From positions 1-64,000 of IMG/VR virus record IMGVR_UViG_3300035670_000164: a stretch of 64,000 nt of DNA. One strand, 5' to 3'. Shown piece by piece: positions 3,172-60,639 of this stretch (positions within the stretch are counted from its first letter, which is position 1; every line of letters begins with the position of its first letter). The notes under the pieces are model-generated. The model saw only the letters and a list, made by a program, of their open reading frames with translations, was not told where the DNA came from and did no database searches. The stretch comes from a virus. Both the position numbers and the translations under genes were made by a program.

Positions 3172-3534
3172 ATGGTTGATCCAATTCAAAATGTAGTAGA
3201 TGCTAAATCTGGTTATGAACTAGCTTTAGCAATAATAGGAGTATTTATTTTAGGATTTGCTTGGATTAGTCGTAAATTCTTTGAAATTACTAAAACTCAA
3301 GATGATAAAGAAGTAGTACATATCCAACACATAGAATCAATTAATAAAGCTCATGTAGAACAAATTGAACGTATCTATAAAGAAAATAGTGATAGAGTTG
3401 AAAGGTTAATTGAAGCTCATAGAACAGAAATATTAACTGCTGTAGACAAATTAACAGTTGCATTACATGAATTACATATATCTATTGAGAAACGTTCAGT
3501 AAGATTAACTGATAACAGAACTAATGGTAAATAA
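3172..3534 (+). CDS. Small membrane protein, possible holin or spanin-like
   Basis: 120 residues with one clear transmembrane segment at ~15-35 (ELALAIIGVFILGFAWIS). A long, charged, helical, probably coiled-coil tail follows (~40-105). AAGGA lies 8 bases before the ATG. One N-terminal membrane helix with a long helical soluble part, placed beside the terminase, fits known phage holin or spanin arrangements, but no family signature is visible. The last codons overlap the terminase start. Function is inferred from topology only. Confidence 0.45.
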   Translation: MVDPIQNVVDAKSGYELALAIIGVFILGFAWISRKFFEITKTQDDKEVVHIQHIESINKAHVEQIERIYKENSDRVERLIEAHRTEILTAVDKLTVALHELHISIEKRSVRLTDNRTNGK

Positions 3535-6061
3535 AACTGTAGTAGATTATTTAAATAATATTTCATATAAAGAAGATACTTCTTATGTACCTTCTTTATT
3601 TGCATTACAGTTTATTAATTTTATTAAATTAGTAAATGGTGATTCTCAAGAAGAACATAAAACACCTATTATTCATTATAAAATGTTAGATAAATTAGTA
3701 AACCCAAAGAAAGATATTATTAATTTACTCTTTCGTGGTTCAGCTAAAACTACTGTATTTGCTGAATATATGATTCTTTATTTAGCTATATATCAAGAAT
3801 TACCTAAACTAAAAAACATTGATTTAGGAATATATGTATCAGATTCTATTGAAAATGGTGTAAAAAATATGAGAAAGAATTTAGAATATCGTTGGGATAA
3901 TTCTGAATTTTTAAAACAATTTATACCTAATACTAGGTTTACAGATATTAGATGGGAATTTACTAATATTGAAGGTAAAACTACTATCTTTAAAGGTTAT
4001 GGTGCAGCTACAGGTGTAAGGGGAGCTAAAGAAATGGGTAAAAGACCTATGTTAGCTTTACTCGATGATTTACTTAGTGATGAAGATGCTAAGTCAGATA
4101 CAGTAATTTCAAATATAGAATCTACTGTATATAAAGCTATTGAACATGCTCTTGATCCAAATAAAAGATTAGTTGTATGGAATGGAACTCCATTTAATGC
4201 TAAAGACCCATTATATAAAGCTGTAGAATCTGGTGCTTGGGAAGTAAATGTATTTCCTGTATGTGAAGAATTTCCTTGTACAGAGGAAGAATTTAAAGGA
4301 GCTTGGGAAGATAGGTTTTCATATAGTACAGTTAAAGCTAGATATGATAAAGCATTACAAGTAGGTAAAATAGATTCTTTTAACCAAGAATTAATGTTAA
4401 GAATTATGAGTGATGAAGATAGATTAATTACTGATTCTGATATTAGATGGTATAAGAGAGAAACTTTATTGGAAAATAAAGATTTATATAATTTTTATAT
4501 TACTACTGACTTTGCTACTTCTGAAAAAACTTCAAGAGATTTTAGTGTTATATCTGTTTGGGCTTATAATTCTAATGGAGATTGGTTCTATGTTGATGGA
4601 ATATGTAAAAGACAAACTATGGATAAAAATATAAATGAATTATTTAGATTAGCTCAAATGTATAAACCCCAACAAGTAGGTATAGAAGTATCAGGACAAC
4701 AAGGAGGATTTATTTCATGGATTCAAGAAGAAATGATGAGAAGAAATATATGGTTTACTCTAGCAAGTGATAATAATAAATCTGATCCAGGTATTAGACC
4801 TAATACAAATAAAATGGTAAGATTTAATGTAGTAGTTCCTTGGTTTAAGATGCACAAAATATTCTTCCCTAATGAATTAAAAAAAGATAGTACATTAGTG
4901 GAATGTATGGATGAATTAACTTTAGCAAGTCCTCAAGGGTTTAAATCTAAACATGATGACTTTTGTTTTACTGGGAATACTCAAATTCTTCTTCACGATG
5001 GTTCATTAAAAAAAATAAAAGATATTAAAGAAAATGATTTAGTTATGACGTTAGCATTAGATACTATTGCTATGCCAGCATGTTCTGCTATAATGACTGG
5101 TACTAAAGAAGTTAAAGATTACTTTTTTAGTAATGGAAGTGTTATTTCTGTAACTGAAAATCATCCAATATTGTCAACATTAGGTTGGATTCAAGTTAAA
5201 GATATAACACCAGAAACTAAAATTATCTGGAGTAGTATATGCAAATTGAATTCGATGGATATAAGTGGACTAAATGTAAATCAGGGTATTATCAATCAAG
5301 TTGTAACATCAATGGTAAACGAAGATGGTTACATCAATATGTATGGCAAAAAACTAATGGAGATCAACCTAAAGGATTTGCTATACACCATAAAGATGAA
5401 GATAAAGACAATAACTCTATTGAAAATTTATGCTTACTGTCAAGAAGTAATCATCAAAAACTGCATGGATTTCAAGGAGACTTGGAACAACAAAAAATTC
5501 AGCTTGAAAATATTAGGATTAAGGCAACAGAATGGCATAAATCTGATGAAGGTAGGGCATGGCATAAAGAACATTATGAAAAAACTAAAGAATCTTTACA
5601 TAAAAAAAGATTTACAAGGGAATGCTTTGTCTGCGGAAAATCAATACAATCTCACCTTAAACTCAAAAGAGTCTTTTGCTCTACAAAATGTTCTAATACA
5701 AACCAAACAACAGACACAACAAAATTCAAACTTTTTAAATGTGAATGGTGTAATTCAGAATTCATGTGGCACAGATGGAAACGAAGTTGTTCTAAGGAAT
5801 GCGGAAATAGTTTATCTGGTAAAAAAAGACAACTTAAGATACGAGAATGTGTATAATTTTGAAGTAAAAAGTTCTCACAATTATGTATTAGCTAACGGCA
5901 TTATAGCACATAATTGTGATACTATTTCTATGTTAGCATCATTACAACCTTGGAAACCTTCTGTAGAAGCTAATATAAAAAAGAAAGATAATAATAGTCC
6001 TATTTGGGAATTTGATATTCCAATAGATGAACCTAGTAACCTTCACTCATATATTATATGA
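3524..6061 (+). CDS. terL: Large terminase subunit interrupted by an intein
   Basis: 845 residues as translated. The host protein is residues 1-480 plus 798-845, about 528 residues, a normal size for N4-like TerL. ATPase domain: Walker A-like RGSAKTT at 71-77 and acidic Walker B LLDD ending at 181-182. Nuclease domain: D329 in TTDF, E388 in GIEVSG, and the last acidic pair HDD (477-479). The intein sits exactly after this motif, and removal joins HDDF to CDTISML, the usual terminase sequence. TerL cuts concatemeric DNA and pumps it into the prohead. The stop overlaps the next start as ATGA. An endonuclease gene is nested out of frame inside the intein. Confidence 0.92.
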   Translation: MVNKTVVDYLNNISYKEDTSYVPSLFALQFINFIKLVNGDSQEEHKTPIIHYKMLDKLVNPKKDIINLLFRGSAKTTVFAEYMILYLAIYQELPKLKNIDLGIYVSDSIENGVKNMRKNLEYRWDNSEFLKQFIPNTRFTDIRWEFTNIEGKTTIFKGYGAATGVRGAKEMGKRPMLALLDDLLSDEDAKSDTVISNIESTVYKAIEHALDPNKRLVVWNGTPFNAKDPLYKAVESGAWEVNVFPVCEEFPCTEEEFKGAWEDRFSYSTVKARYDKALQVGKIDSFNQELMLRIMSDEDRLITDSDIRWYKRETLLENKDLYNFYITTDFATSEKTSRDFSVISVWAYNSNGDWFYVDGICKRQTMDKNINELFRLAQMYKPQQVGIEVSGQQGGFISWIQEEMMRRNIWFTLASDNNKSDPGIRPNTNKMVRFNVVVPWFKMHKIFFPNELKKDSTLVECMDELTLASPQGFKSKHDDFCFTGNTQILLHDGSLKKIKDIKENDLVMTLALDTIAMPACSAIMTGTKEVKDYFFSNGSVISVTENHPILSTLGWIQVKDITPETKIIWSSICKLNSMDISGLNVNQGIINQVVTSMVNEDGYINMYGKKLMEINLKDLLYTIKMKIKTITLLKIYAYCQEVIIKNCMDFKETWNNKKFSLKILGLRQQNGINLMKVGHGIKNIMKKLKNLYIKKDLQGNALSAENQYNLTLNSKESFALQNVLIQTKQQTQQNSNFLNVNGVIQNSCGTDGNEVVLRNAEIVYLVKKDNLRYENVYNFEVKSSHNYVLANGIIAHNCDTISMLASLQPWKPSVEANIKKKDNNSPIWEFDIPIDEPSNLHSYII
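4964..5914 (+). mobile_element. Intein inside terminase (317 residues)
   Basis: Residues 481-797 of the terminase reading frame. Block A begins CFTGNTQILLHDGS with catalytic Cys1. Block B contains SVTENHPIL (the T..H motif). Block F is VYNFEVKSSHNYVLANG, and block G ends GIIAHN before a Cys as the +1 extein residue. All residues needed for standard splicing (C1, TxxH, HN, C+1) are present. The middle, ~570-775, has no endonuclease similarity in this frame and is rich in K, N, I and L. That is because the same DNA encodes an HNH protein in another frame. Confidence 0.92.
5239..5856 (+). CDS. HNH homing endonuclease nested out of frame in the terminase intein
   Basis: 205 residues, wholly inside the terminase gene but in a different + frame. 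A GGAG ribosome site lies 7 bases before the ATG. The N-terminal ~80 residues hold an HNH core: WLHQYVWQ, HHKDEDKDNNSIENL (H50-H51, N59) and NHQKLH. The C-terminal ~90 residues have two Cys-pair zinc-finger-like motifs (CFVCGKS ... CSTKC, and CEWCNSE ... CSKEC). Such proteins cut an intein-free allele and so spread the element. That this frame, and not the intein frame, carries the recognisable domain shows it is a real gene and not a chance opening. A DNA-binding or maturase-like accessory role is less likely. Confidence 0.85.
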   Translation: MQIEFDGYKWTKCKSGYYQSSCNINGKRRWLHQYVWQKTNGDQPKGFAIHHKDEDKDNNSIENLCLLSRSNHQKLHGFQGDLEQQKIQLENIRIKATEWHKSDEGRAWHKEHYEKTKESLHKKRFTRECFVCGKSIQSHLKLKRVFCSTKCSNTNQTTDTTKFKLFKCEWCNSEFMWHRWKRSCSKECGNSLSGKKRQLKIRECV

Positions 6062-6684
6062 AAATAATAGATTTCATTAATTTAGTTAAAGATGGTCCTT
6101 TAAGACAAGTAAGTATTAATCAAACTGATTTAGTATCTTATATTAATCTTGGATTACAAGAAGTATATCAAAAGTTTAATTTAGATACTAAAACAGAAAC
6201 AATTACTTTAACTACTGCATTAGAATATGATTTACCTTTGGATTTTACAAGTGTAAATTATATTAGAACTTCTGGTAATTATTACAGAGATGAGCAAGGT
6301 AATTTATATAATTTAAACGAAGACTTTGATTTAGCAATTAATGAACCTAATAATTTTAATAGCATATTTATTAACAATAATCTTACACTTTATGTACCTT
6401 ACCCAGTTGTAGGTCAAGAATTAACTTTAAATTATAAAGCTAGTCCAGTATTAATAGCAGAATTTGAATTAGATACTGATATGCTTGTAGCTAATCAGTA
6501 TTTAAATCCATTAATGATGTATGTAACATATCTTGGATTCTTACAGAATGGTGGAAGTAGTATTCCTGAGATTAAATCTTCATTACAATTATATGAAGAA
6601 GCTTGTAATTCAATTCTAATGTCAGGTAACTATATTAATCATACTGGATATGATAATAAATTTGAAGAAAGAGGATTTGTATAA
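6058..6684 (+). CDS. Head-tail connector / adaptor-like virion protein
   Basis: 208 residues. The N-terminal helical stretch (MKIIDFINLVKDGPLRQ ... YINLGLQEVYQKF), a central beta-rich part (LEYDLPLDFTSVNYIR) and a helical C-terminus resemble phage adaptor or connector proteins that sit beside the terminase in N4-like genomes (N4 gp67 region). It overlaps the terminase stop (ATGA) and the next start (TAATG). The role is inferred from context and overall pattern, without a catalytic or binding motif. Confidence 0.5.
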   Translation: MKIIDFINLVKDGPLRQVSINQTDLVSYINLGLQEVYQKFNLDTKTETITLTTALEYDLPLDFTSVNYIRTSGNYYRDEQGNLYNLNEDFDLAINEPNNFNSIFINNNLTLYVPYPVVGQELTLNYKASPVLIAEFELDTDMLVANQYLNPLMMYVTYLGFLQNGGSSIPEIKSSLQLYEEACNSILMSGNYINHTGYDNKFEERGFV

Positions 6685-7772
6685 TGGCTACATCATCTGA
6701 AAATGCTACATTAGCTAATCAATATGCCACACATGCAGAACAAGATGCTGTTGCTGCATTACAGGCATCAGAAGATGCTTATCAAGCTGCTGCTTTAGAG
6801 GTATCTTTATATTGGGATTTTGAAACTAACGAATTTAAAGCATATAACACTGATACAGCTTCTTGGGAAGTAGTTCATGTAGATTCTTTTCAAGGTTCAA
6901 TAGATGGTGGAACAGTATCAGTTCCAAATCATTTAATTCAAATTAAAAGAGATACTGCTGGAAATTGGTTTAGTAATAATCCAATATTAGCAATAGGTGA
7001 AGTTGGTTTTGAAACAGATACAAAATATTTAAAAGTAGGTAATGGAACATCTGCATGGAATGATTTATCTTATATTCAAATTCCTAGTGCTAATGTTATT
7101 GGATTTGAGAATGTAGATAATACTGCTGATATAGACAAACCAGTATCTACTTTACAACAAACTGCTATTGATGATTCTTTACAATTAGCTAAAGATTATT
7201 CAGATGTATTAAGATTAGAAACATATATTGATAAAGGTGAATATGATGCTTCTGGTGATGTATTTCCTACTACTGCTTTAAGAGGGGATACTTATTTAAT
7301 TTCTGTAGGTGGAACATTAGGCTCATTAATAGTAGAACAAAAAGATACTCTTAGAGCATTAATAGATGATCCAGGTCAATCAGAAAGTAATTGGTTAGTT
7401 ATTCCAGCAAAAGAAAATATAGTTTATCCATATATTGTTAGTGGATTTATATATGATAAACCTCAAGAAAATGATTTAGTATTATTACACGTATTTGTTA
7501 CTAATGTATCTTTTCCACAAGATTTAGTTGGAAGTAAAGTAATTTGTAGAGATGTGATATTAACAACCTCTACTACTAAAGAATTTAAGTTATATAAAAA
7601 TTATTTAGAAATTGGTTCAATTAATTTTACAACAGATAATTTAGAAGCAACATATACTTTTAATAATTCAGTATCATTTATTGCTGGGGATACATTACAA
7701 ATTATGTCTCCAACATCTCAAGACCCAAATTTAAAACATATAGCAATATCACTATTAGGAACGAGAACATGA
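6684..7772 (+). CDS. Tail appendage / fibre protein
   Basis: 362 residues. The Ala-rich helical N-terminus (~1-50) is followed by fibre modules: GEVGFETDTKYLKVGNGTSA at ~112-131, a typical fibre repeat, then ENVDNTADIDKPVSTLQQTA (~145-165), the 'nVdNTsDadKPvS' linker of many phage tail fibres. The C-terminus is beta-rich. It lies in the appendage region of the N4-like gene order. Probable non-contractile appendage or fibre that attaches other receptor-binding parts. Confidence 0.65.
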   Translation: MATSSENATLANQYATHAEQDAVAALQASEDAYQAAALEVSLYWDFETNEFKAYNTDTASWEVVHVDSFQGSIDGGTVSVPNHLIQIKRDTAGNWFSNNPILAIGEVGFETDTKYLKVGNGTSAWNDLSYIQIPSANVIGFENVDNTADIDKPVSTLQQTAIDDSLQLAKDYSDVLRLETYIDKGEYDASGDVFPTTALRGDTYLISVGGTLGSLIVEQKDTLRALIDDPGQSESNWLVIPAKENIVYPYIVSGFIYDKPQENDLVLLHVFVTNVSFPQDLVGSKVICRDVILTTSTTKEFKLYKNYLEIGSINFTTDNLEATYTFNNSVSFIAGDTLQIMSPTSQDPNLKHIAISLLGTRT

Positions 7773-46519: not shown

Positions 46520-46596
46520 TGGTACTCCCCATAGGATTTGAACCTACATATTACATATTATGAGTATGCTGCATTAACCTATTATGCTAAAGGAGT
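46520..46596 (-). tRNA. tRNA-Met (anticodon CAT)
   Basis: Full cloverleaf on the - strand, 77 bases with encoded CCA. Acceptor ACTCCTT / GGGGAGT (two G-U pairs), discriminator A. D arm GCAT / ATGC with a GG-containing loop. Anticodon arm GCATA-CTCATAA-TATGT with CAT. Variable loop AATAT. T arm GTAGG-TTCAAAT-CCTAT. CAT is Met, or Ile if the C is lysidine-modified; the acceptor's first A-U pair is not of the initiator type. Confidence 0.85.
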
Positions 46597-46602
46597 TTAA
46601 AT

Positions 46603-46695
46603 TGGTGGATAATAAAAGATTTAAACTTTTAACTCTTAATAAATTAATAGAAATTCTACTAATCCTAAGCGTGTTCTCAATTACACTAATTATCC
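46603..46695 (-). tRNA. Aberrant class-II tRNA-like gene (Leu-type?)
   Basis: Perfect 7-bp acceptor GGATAAT / ATTATCC, discriminator A and encoded CCA. T arm AAAAG-TTTAAAT-CTTTT, where the invariant C of the T loop is T. D arm GTGT / ACAC with AATTGAGA lacking the usual GG. A long variable region (TTAA-TTTA-TTAA hairpin) fits Leu/Ser type. The anticodon arm does not fold normally: the best stem TAGGA / TTCTA leaves a 10-base loop with TAGTAG. Divergent tRNA, pseudogene or other tRNA-like RNA. Confidence 0.45.
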
Positions 46696-58740: not shown

Positions 58741-59421
58741 CTATTCTTCAAGTAACATTTCTTTAGAATATTTTTTATTCCATTCTTTAAAAGAAGAATG
58801 AGTCATAAATTTAGGATTCTTTTTAAGAATAGCTTTACCAGTAAGATATTGAAATTCTGTTGGTAATCTACCAAGATATTGCATAATAGGTCCTAAATTG
58901 TCTTCTGTAGTTATATCATAAAGTAAACCATATACTGCATATAGTGTACTTGGTTCATTAGGTACTACTACATCTAGTGGTTTATTAATAATTTCTTCTT
59001 TTGTAGGCAAGTCTGTAAAGATTTGACAATAAGAATAAAACTCTCTTCCTACAGCTTCTCCTATAGCCCCACATATAAGAGCTAACATTGGTTCTTGTAT
59101 TCCTTTAATTAATTTAGATACAAATTCCCAAGTTCTAAGAGTAGGAAATGTACAATCATTATGTATTAGATCAAAGCTAAATAATGAATTTGGTTTAAAT
59201 TCAATATAAGAGATAATTCTATAATCTATATTATTATCTCTAGCCCAAACTAACCATTCTTTATTTTCTACTTCAAGAAACAAGTGAATTAATCTACTTT
59301 GCATTGCAGTAGATAATCTATTAGTAATAGCATTATCTGTAGATTTATTTCCTGCACACATAATGTAACATTTATCATGAAGCTTATGTTGTCCTATTTC
59401 CCTATCTAAGCAAAGTCTATA
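58741..59421 (-). CDS. MoxR-type AAA ATPase, 3' exon
   Basis: 226 codons plus stop. The exon starts YRLCLDREIGQHKLHD and continues CYIMCAGNKSTDNAITNRLS with sensor 1 (AGN) and the Arg-finger region (LSTAMQSRLIHLFLE). The rest is the helical lid. A frame beginning at the Met at 59361 would lack the first 20 residues and is not the real start. Spliced to 60304-60639 it gives a 338-residue protein. The last 8 codons are duplicated at 57979-58004. Confidence 0.85.
   Translation of the reverse strand, partial: YRLCLDREIGQHKLHDKCYIMCAGNKSTDNAITNRLSTAMQSRLIHLFLEVENKEWLVWARDNNIDYRIISYIEFKPNSLFSFDLIHNDCTFPTLRTWEFVSKLIKGIQEPMLALICGAIGEAVGREFYSYCQIFTDLPTKEEIINKPLDVVVPNEPSTLYAVYGLLYDITTEDNLGPIMQYLGRLPTEFQYLTGKAILKKNPKFMTHSSFKEWNKKYSKEMLLEE
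58742..58767. repeat. 26-bp direct repeat, right copy
   Basis: Part of the MoxR-type gene: the last 8 codons and the first two bases of its TAG stop. Matches 57979-58004 at all 26 positions, 763 bases apart. Confidence 0.85.
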
Positions 59422-60303
59422 CCTTTTTGTTCAATAAAGTTCGTTAAGCTTTATCCGTAATAACCGATAGTAAGTTATTACCGCTATACATTTCTGTATA
59501 GAGCAGACCATATCAATCTCTACAACATAACTTGTTTAGAGAGTTACCGTTTCCACTCACTTGAGTGTACACCTTGCTAAAGGTTGGTCGTTAAACATTT
59601 AAGGAAAATTACGCAATCGTTCAGTATCATTTATAGAATCTAAAAGTTCATCTGCATACTTTGCAGCTTCAATTTCAGTCATAAATGTTTTCCAACCGTA
59701 ACTTGATTTACCATTATGTCGAATACATACAGCCCATCGAGCTTTTGCTCTAGGATTATTTATATAAGATACATGGTGATACTTTGATACCCCTTGAGGG
59801 GATTTTAAACCAATTCTTATTGCATGAAGTTGATTATGTGAAGGATTACTTATTTCTAAGTTATTAATAGAATTATTTCCTGGATTTCCATCAATATGAT
59901 TTATTTCCATTCCTTTTATAAAATTTGGTAAAAAAGCTTGAGCTACTAATTGATGAACTGAAAATGTTTTTGTTAATTCACTTGTACAAAGGGTAGCAAT
60001 TATATAACCTCGCTTTTTTATTTGAGGTTTCCTAATTCTTTCTTTTATTAAACGAAATGTATTATCTCTACGTTTAACTTTTCTTTCCAAATTTTTTATT
60101 CTACCTAAATTTGAAACTTGATAATTTCCTTCAAATTCTAAAATATCTTTCCAAATCTCTTGCATAATTTTACCTATTTAGTAATGAATTGTCTTATAGA
60201 TTATACCTGCTTGTACTTATACAAGCAATAATAATTTATGAAGAGTTTTTCATTTTAGGTAACTTTAAATATAAAATTTCTTTTATAAGTGCCTATTTTG
60301 TTA
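59422..60303 (-). ncRNA. Group I intron in the MoxR-type ATPase gene (882 bases)
   Basis: Boundaries follow group I rules exactly: the 5' exon ends GCTGCTGCT (T), the intron starts TAACAAAATAGG and ends CAAAAAGG (G), and the 3' exon starts TATAGACTT. Joining gives QAAA-YRLCLDRE in frame, the expected ATPase sequence. P7 is GACCA / TGGTC. The stretch TTTAACGACCAACCTT ... CACTCAAGTGAGTGGAAACGG and GATATGGTCTG is the classic phage group I core. It carries an HNH gene. Confidence 0.9.
59599..60165 (-). CDS. NUMOD4-HNH-AP2 homing endonuclease in the intron
   Basis: 188 residues. NUMOD4 at 1-20 (WKDILEFEGNYQVSNLGRI). HNH at ~70-115 (SVHQLVAQAFLPN, then INHIDGNPGNNSINNLE and NPSHNQLHA). AP2-like DNA-binding domain at ~125-180 (GVSKYHHVSY ... 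ARWAVCIRHNGKSSYGWKTF, TEIEAAKYADEL). All HNH residues appear intact. It would cut ATPase alleles lacking the intron. This is a different endonuclease class from those of the terminase intein and reductase intron. Confidence 0.9.
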   Translation of the reverse strand: MQEIWKDILEFEGNYQVSNLGRIKNLERKVKRRDNTFRLIKERIRKPQIKKRGYIIATLCTSELTKTFSVHQLVAQAFLPNFIKGMEINHIDGNPGNNSINNLEISNPSHNQLHAIRIGLKSPQGVSKYHHVSYINNPRAKARWAVCIRHNGKSSYGWKTFMTEIEAAKYADELLDSINDTERLRNFP

Positions 60304-60639
60304 AGCAGCAGCTTGTACACTTAATGGTGCAGAATTAAACTCATCAAGAAGTAATAACCATCCTTTATACCCATCAGGAATAGGTGTATTAATTAAAGGA
60401 AATACATCAAAAGGAATCCAAGTAGCAATACCATTTTCTATTTTAGGAAATCCATTTAGATCAACACTATCACATTGAGATAATCTTAAATCTATTAATT
60501 TAAGTTTTTTTTCATCTGCTATTTGTTTAGCAATAGAACTTTTACTACAACCTGGGCTAGATTGTACAAAGGGTACTAATTTATTTTTAAAGCATTGAAT
60601 TAATGCTTCTTTACATTCTTTTATATTAACTGTAATCAT
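60304..60639 (-). CDS. MoxR-type AAA ATPase, 5' exon
   Basis: 112 codons. Walker A is QSSPGCSKSSI (26-36), where the Gly usually before the Lys is Ser. Walker B is LLLLDEFNSAPLSVQAAA (~95-112). Unspliced translation stops right after the exon at 60301. These are MoxR features: a chaperone-like AAA ATPase acting with the VWA protein at 54541-55611. The altered Walker A may change nucleotide binding or may be characteristic of this group. Confidence 0.82.

Follow-up and report, generated by a model that had tools for sequence, protein, structure and literature searches.

A predicted terminase intein of an N4-like phage that shares its DNA with an HNH endonuclease gene in a second reading frame

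Introduction

In textbook inteins the endonuclease is an in-frame domain and forms part of the excised protein. Another layout reportedly characterizes the fractured phage genes described by Dassa in 2009, where a free-standing endonuclease gene is said to lie between the two halves of an intein, the cases being mainly Vsr-like endonucleases and replication genes.

Two further systems bear on the arrangement reported below. In ShiLan, an HNH gene lies out of frame within an open phage methylase gene (PMC11855218), with a further case in Applejack (PMC12613952); the ShiLan authors found no splicing domains and thought that the protein keeps the in-frame translation (PMC11855218). Inteins in the large terminase (TerL) of mycobacteriophages are placed in the ATPase domain, and a search of that source brought up no mention of an out-of-frame endonuclease in them (PMC5050341). 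A preprint on actinobacteriophage inteins of non-canonical architecture (Gosselin 2025, doi 10.1101/2025.01.02.630785) may, to judge from its title and its citation in PMC11855218, describe overlapping frames in inteins. The initial annotation of the DNA analyzed here knew of no common description of an endonuclease placed out of frame within an unbroken intein; the open-access literature likewise yielded no such case, priority being uncertain, and the statement has to be tempered by ShiLan, a close published analogue (PMC11855218) although not in an intein.

We analyzed a stretch of 64,000 nucleotides (hereafter the window) that is part of a 70,355-base IMG/VR virus record (IMGVR_UViG_3300035670_000164) and covers the late region of an N4-like phage. 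Its terminase locus stands closest to the fractured split-intein genes and to the out-of-frame HNH gene of ShiLan. It shares with the latter a zinc-finger HNH gene placed out of frame inside an open host gene, as well as a mobile distribution; unlike in ShiLan, terL is the host gene, complete splicing motifs stand on both sides of the insert and a Shine-Dalgarno (SD) motif is often present, so that the window, with an out-of-frame HNH gene plus splicing domains, falls outside the ShiLan type of insertion without such domains. The fractured form is taken by 25 non-redundant loci of the window's own HNH family, in which the intein halves occupy separate reading frames; this is not so in the window and 61 other loci. 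A split intein must act in trans, whereas here the intein stays in one piece through the removal of stops from the overlapping frame. Conventional LAGLIDADG or HNH inteins likewise bring an endonuclease with them, and here too it is encoded between blocks B and F, the usual position. Like the TerL inteins of mycobacteriophages (PMC5050341), the element sits in TerL and carries an endonuclease, but it lies in the nuclease rather than the ATPase domain. The nuclease core and fold are those of I-HmuI, other HNH_3 phage homing endonucleases and PHROG 15471; the I-HmuI gene lies within a group I intron, whereas Rfam searches found no intron RNA at the window locus.

Results

The window's terL gene (3524-6058; all positions are on the plus strand unless stated otherwise) is a single open frame for an 845-residue precursor that includes the intein. 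Its N-extein (3524-4963, 480 residues) is 61-69% identical to N4-like TerLs and ends in KHDDF, exactly where tblastn alignments to intein-free TerL relatives stop; the C-extein (5915-6058) starts with CDTISML, and the two are joined as DDF-xDTISML, intein-free, in 78 of 80 relatives. The segment between them (4964-5914) is predicted to encode a complete class-1-type intein of 317 residues, which runs from Cys481 of TerL (4964) to a terminal HN at about residue 797 (5914) and is followed by Cys+1. It exceeds the curated NCBIfam cutoffs at both ends (intein_Nterm, 30 bits against 24.5; intein_Cterm, 26.6 against 15.6), matches Pfam Intein_splicing with E 5e-11 and carries the class 1 hallmarks of Cys1, a block B TxxH, a C-terminal HN and a +1 nucleophile, with C1, the TxxH residues T64 and H67, and N317 invariant or nearly so across 47-50 nested inteins. 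The intein frame is continuous with both exteins and contains zero stops.

An N-terminal splicing domain with blocks A and B (4964-5230; IntN profile E 2e-30) and a C-terminal one with blocks F and G (5801-5914; IntC profile E 2e-15) make up the two ends of the intein. AlphaFold2 models these halves with pLDDT values of 81-97, and the insert between them mostly at 35-80, with long low-confidence stretches. A Foldseek search with the intein model returns the Ssp DnaB mini-intein (1mi8, E 1.4e-6) and groups the window protein with the DnaB and RecA mini-inteins. The intein-frame insert has no Pfam endonuclease match; where a canonical large intein has its endonuclease in the intein frame, here the nuclease sits in the -1 frame. 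A group I or II intron inside the intein was also considered and rejected: Rfam gives no match at gathering thresholds and none up to E 1 within 4900-6000, and there is no spare sequence between IntN, HNH and IntC.

The nested gene (5239-5856) starts with ATG and encodes a 205-residue HNH protein in the -1 frame relative to the intein, whose codons start at HNH codon position 2; its 3' end overlaps the start of the C-terminal splicing domain. Both the catalytic motif and the fold of an HNH endonuclease are recognizable in the product: Pfam HNH_3 matches with E 2e-15 (core, residues 29-73), two Cys-pair zinc fingers follow (C129/C132/C147/C151 and C168/C171/C184/C188), AlphaFold2 models the protein at pLDDT 90 and the top Foldseek match of that model is I-HmuI (1u3e, probability 1.00, E 1.6e-3). 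The start context reads GGAG TAG TAT ATG, with an SD-like GGAG (5229-5232) located 6 nt 5' of the ATG, in a context that is conserved in L003, a nested locus among the nearest TerL relatives, and a TAG stop of the HNH frame (5233-5235) two codons 5' of the ATG. The reading frames, coordinates and SD site given in the initial annotation thus hold, with the TerL frame open throughout and the HNH frame intact across it, and its central proposal, that one stretch of DNA encodes two proteins, agrees with an HNH_3 match in one frame beneath a stop-free predicted intein in the other.

To place the locus among its relatives, we scanned IMG/VR, GTDB genomes and phage records by tblastn and profiles and classed the loci using profiles for both intein halves. 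The scans yielded 121 loci with a good HNH of the window family, or 110 after removal of rows at least 92% identical; single-protein scans with two of the loci (L013 and L017) as queries gave few matches. In 61 of the 110 the HNH is nested within an unbroken, stop-free intein and has the relative frame found in the window, and one more is nested in the other frame (L086/L093); 25 have split halves around the HNH, 20 lack an intein and three are cut off by contig ends. All nested inteins occupy one TerL site in the nuclease motif, 5' of a conserved C/S-D-A-x-R-Y motif and after a D/H-rich stretch; one of them (L051) has no N-extein, as its contig begins inside the intein. The host proteins are varied, with Pfam Terminase_3 in 28 and Terminase_6N in 25 of 60 TerLs, some having both. 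The nested arrangement hence recurs at the same spot in about 60 other diverse phage lineages, and is neither a one-off nor a sequencing error; the case for it is stronger than the initial annotation supposed. A pair of sequencing or assembly frameshifts, which could have displaced an in-frame HNH domain, is ruled out by the 60-plus independent loci with the same relative frame, and as for homologs with the HNH in frame at the same place, the sole HNH-like matches in the intein frame, in L097 and L129, are weak, partial and from another family member.

Three isolate or complete phage genomes have the arrangement, namely Tetrasphaera phage TJE1 (L016), Acinetobacter phage Highwayman (L017) and Rhodobacteraceae phage LS06-2018-MD07 (L018), and in all three the HNH gene is unannotated, an indication that gene callers miss such nested nucleases. 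The pair nested in the other register, rel2 (L086:4694-5569 and L093:3183-4058), has 0 intein-frame stops against 14-15 expected. A nested TerL intein also lies on a contig binned with an archaeon (L105, a Thermoplasmatales MAG), which is perhaps a provirus or a mis-binned phage.

Stop depletion was assessed with null models that keep the HNH protein and either permute its own synonymous codons or redraw codons from local usage. For the window HNH core, the intein frame should hold 3.7 stops under permutation, with a probability of 0.0005 for zero, and 5.3 under host codon usage (0 of 2000 draws stop-free), against none observed; the third frame of the same region has 33 stops and is not depleted in the survey either. 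Across 60 non-redundant nested loci, 0 intein-frame stops stand against 117 (permutation) or 236 (usage) expected, whereas split loci have 153 (143 and 129 expected) and free-standing loci 79 (84 and 80 expected). Because a locus counts as nested only if it has zero stops, the informative test spans all 82 loci with both intein halves, among which 60 are stop-free where 10.9 or 2.4 would be expected; the corresponding chance probabilities of 1e-72 and 1e-109 are nominal and too small, since they treat related loci as independent, although the end branches of the HNH tree are long (median 0.53). The stop histogram is bimodal, with 60 loci at zero, none at one and the rest near the neutral number, and the empty one-stop class suggests that intermediates are short-lived. 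Selection against intein-frame stops inside the HNH gene, a check proposed at the outset, is thereby borne out.

Substitution patterns between the window and L003 point the same way. Omega is 0.15 in the HNH frame and 1.13 for the same bases read in the intein frame, and amounts to 0.21 in IntN, 0.07 in IntC and 0.21 in the N-extein; other nested pairs have a similar pattern. The endonuclease is therefore conserved, and its intein-frame shadow is neutral apart from having to stay open, so that selection acts jointly on both frames.

With regard to mobility, 78 of the 80 nearest TerL relatives are intein-free at the site, L003 has the nested form and the remaining close relative, L148, carries at exactly the same TerL position a 141-residue mini-intein without an endonuclease (L148:4926-5348). 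Where intein-bearing genes have Cys+1, intein-free TerLs mostly have Ile, with Ala and Leu also occurring. Nucleotide identity between the window and L003, a single phage pair, rises from 78% in the N-extein to 88% over IntN and HNH, and is 81% at the short IntC end and 58% in both the C-extein and the next gene, while the L003 N-extein is 86% identical to those of the intein-free L140 and L194 as compared to 78% with the window. This sporadic distribution, together with apparent movement of the intein and HNH as a unit, looks homing-like and is what homing with occasional loss would predict, the identity jump coming from that one pair.

The same HNH family is found in three states: free-standing beside terL, between the halves of a split intein, and nested, where it overlaps an unbroken intein in another frame. 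The terL gene adjoins a free-standing HNH in the isolates PAE1, FBPa53, SN1 and an Exiguobacterium phage, and the neighbor is a terminase by Pfam in eight of nine tested metagenomic loci, a count that leaves out L021, whose tested neighbor is no terminase and lies 1.4 kb away. Split halves flank the HNH in Lactobacillus phage CL2, among others, and in split loci the IntC half begins inside the HNH 3' end and usually keeps the relative frame of the nested loci (rel1 in 18 of 25 in the two commonest classes, plus 2 more), which suggests a 3' junction common to split and nested loci. The HNH tree (18 of 107 inner branches starred) gives no readable direction between nested-to-split and split-to-nested change. 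In Vibrio phage 1.245.O (L015), TerL has one intein at the Walker A motif, and the site studied here holds a split intein with an unannotated HNH between its halves.

Discussion

The window locus is very probably a mobile intein of TerL, with a homing endonuclease supplied by an HNH gene that overlaps it in the -1 frame and is translated separately. The intein would have inserted into a conserved nuclease motif of TerL, with the endonuclease as a gene of its own rather than an intein domain. Translation of the long frame would give a TerL precursor that tolerates the insert, about 195 residues long, as a linker with little structure; the splicing halves on either side, their motifs being intact, would excise the whole intein to release TerL. 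Ribosomes would start independently at the internal ATG and SD site of the HNH gene, and the resulting protein would cut intein-free terL at the insertion site, so that repair copies the intein and HNH as a unit. Selection keeps the HNH protein, and intein-frame stops are purged through synonymous choice in the HNH frame.

The recurrence of the -1 frame is explained by the nuclease reading with few stops there: local codon usage predicts about 4 stops per HNH gene in this frame against about 18 in the other, because a -1-frame stop arises only where an NTA or NTG codon precedes a suitable base, which synonymous choice can mostly avoid. Descent from a common ancestor could also account for the shared frame, a cause that the poorly resolved HNH tree does not separate from stop content, and the L086/L093 lineage indicates that the frame rule is not absolute. 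All but one of the 62 non-redundant nested loci use the -1 frame, and as the commonest recoding goes the same way, the bias would also suit programmed -1 frameshifting, in which ribosomes slip from the intein into the HNH frame to give an IntN-HNH fusion, the nuclease then being in effect an intein domain reached by recoding. We consider this very unlikely, since the bias is accounted for by stop content and one lineage uses the other frame, and since stops just 5' of the HNH start oppose frameshifting in general: the TAG in the window and L003 closes entry from upstream, and an HNH-frame stop lies between the IntN end and the HNH in 31 of 69 nested loci. ATG starts with SD-like motifs of at least 4 bases are moreover enriched near the HNH start (37 of 66 ATGs, as compared to 118 of 739 in the HNH body), with about 44% of nested loci having no such motif at the likely start. 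Upstream stops and SD enrichment together favor separate initiation of the HNH. A consensus promoter scan of 3400-6800 found fewer sites than in shuffled sequence.

Other readings concern what the HNH protein does and whether the overlap matters. It might be a DNA-packaging protein, similar to the terminase-associated HNH of HK97-type phages, that merely sits in the intein, and the frequent position of free-standing members beside terL, in the metagenomic loci as in PAE1 and the Exiguobacterium phage, would fit such a role. That the HNH belongs to the HNH_3 family with an I-HmuI-like fold, moves with the intein and, L003 aside, is absent within about 3.5 kb of terL in the 79 nearest TerL relatives makes the packaging role improbable. 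Alternatively, the HNH gene or the intein of the window phage could have lost its activity, the overlap being a relic caught in decay toward a split intein; the 25 non-redundant split loci attest to such an end state, whereas the intactness of every invariant HNH, Cys and splicing residue and the purifying selection between the window and L003 leave this reading with only a slight chance. As for an incidentally open frame, kept free of stops by composition and in the absence of joint selection, the -1 frame is indeed naturally stop-poor, and a few GC-rich loci reach a probability of up to 0.4 for a stop-free intein frame; the excess of zero-stop loci and the neutral stop numbers of free and split relatives nonetheless refute it at the family level, and we regard it as next to impossible.

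The preferred reading, a mobile intein with a separately encoded nuclease, means that the two functions overlap in DNA and use different frames; the endonuclease could then be made without splicing and the intein could splice without folding around an enzyme. The overlap at the same time couples them, as neither frame can acquire a stop codon without damage to the element or to the essential terminase. On a broader scale, frame-sharing inteins may form a large, previously unrecognized class that constitutes a TerL-specific homing system, with one HNH family in three states across much of tailed-phage diversity and a nested state that is kept by purging stops and links continuous and split inteins; we offer this as a tentative proposal, for which the case falls just short of evenly balanced. 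Since a single nuclease family takes the free, nested and split forms at one gene site, it offers a direct test of how split inteins and intein endonucleases arose.

Elsewhere in the window, a tandem pair of tRNA genes lies on the minus strand (46523-46695), and an N4-type ATPase gene (PHROG 1297; 58741-60639, minus strand) appears to be interrupted by a second HNH gene (PHROG 59; 59599-60165), different from the first, which separates its N half (60301-60639) from its C half (58741-59361). A search for intron RNA at this gene gave nothing up to E 1, bar one chance miRNA match, and the break resembles the gene splitting described in Vibrio phage JA1 (PMC3670811).
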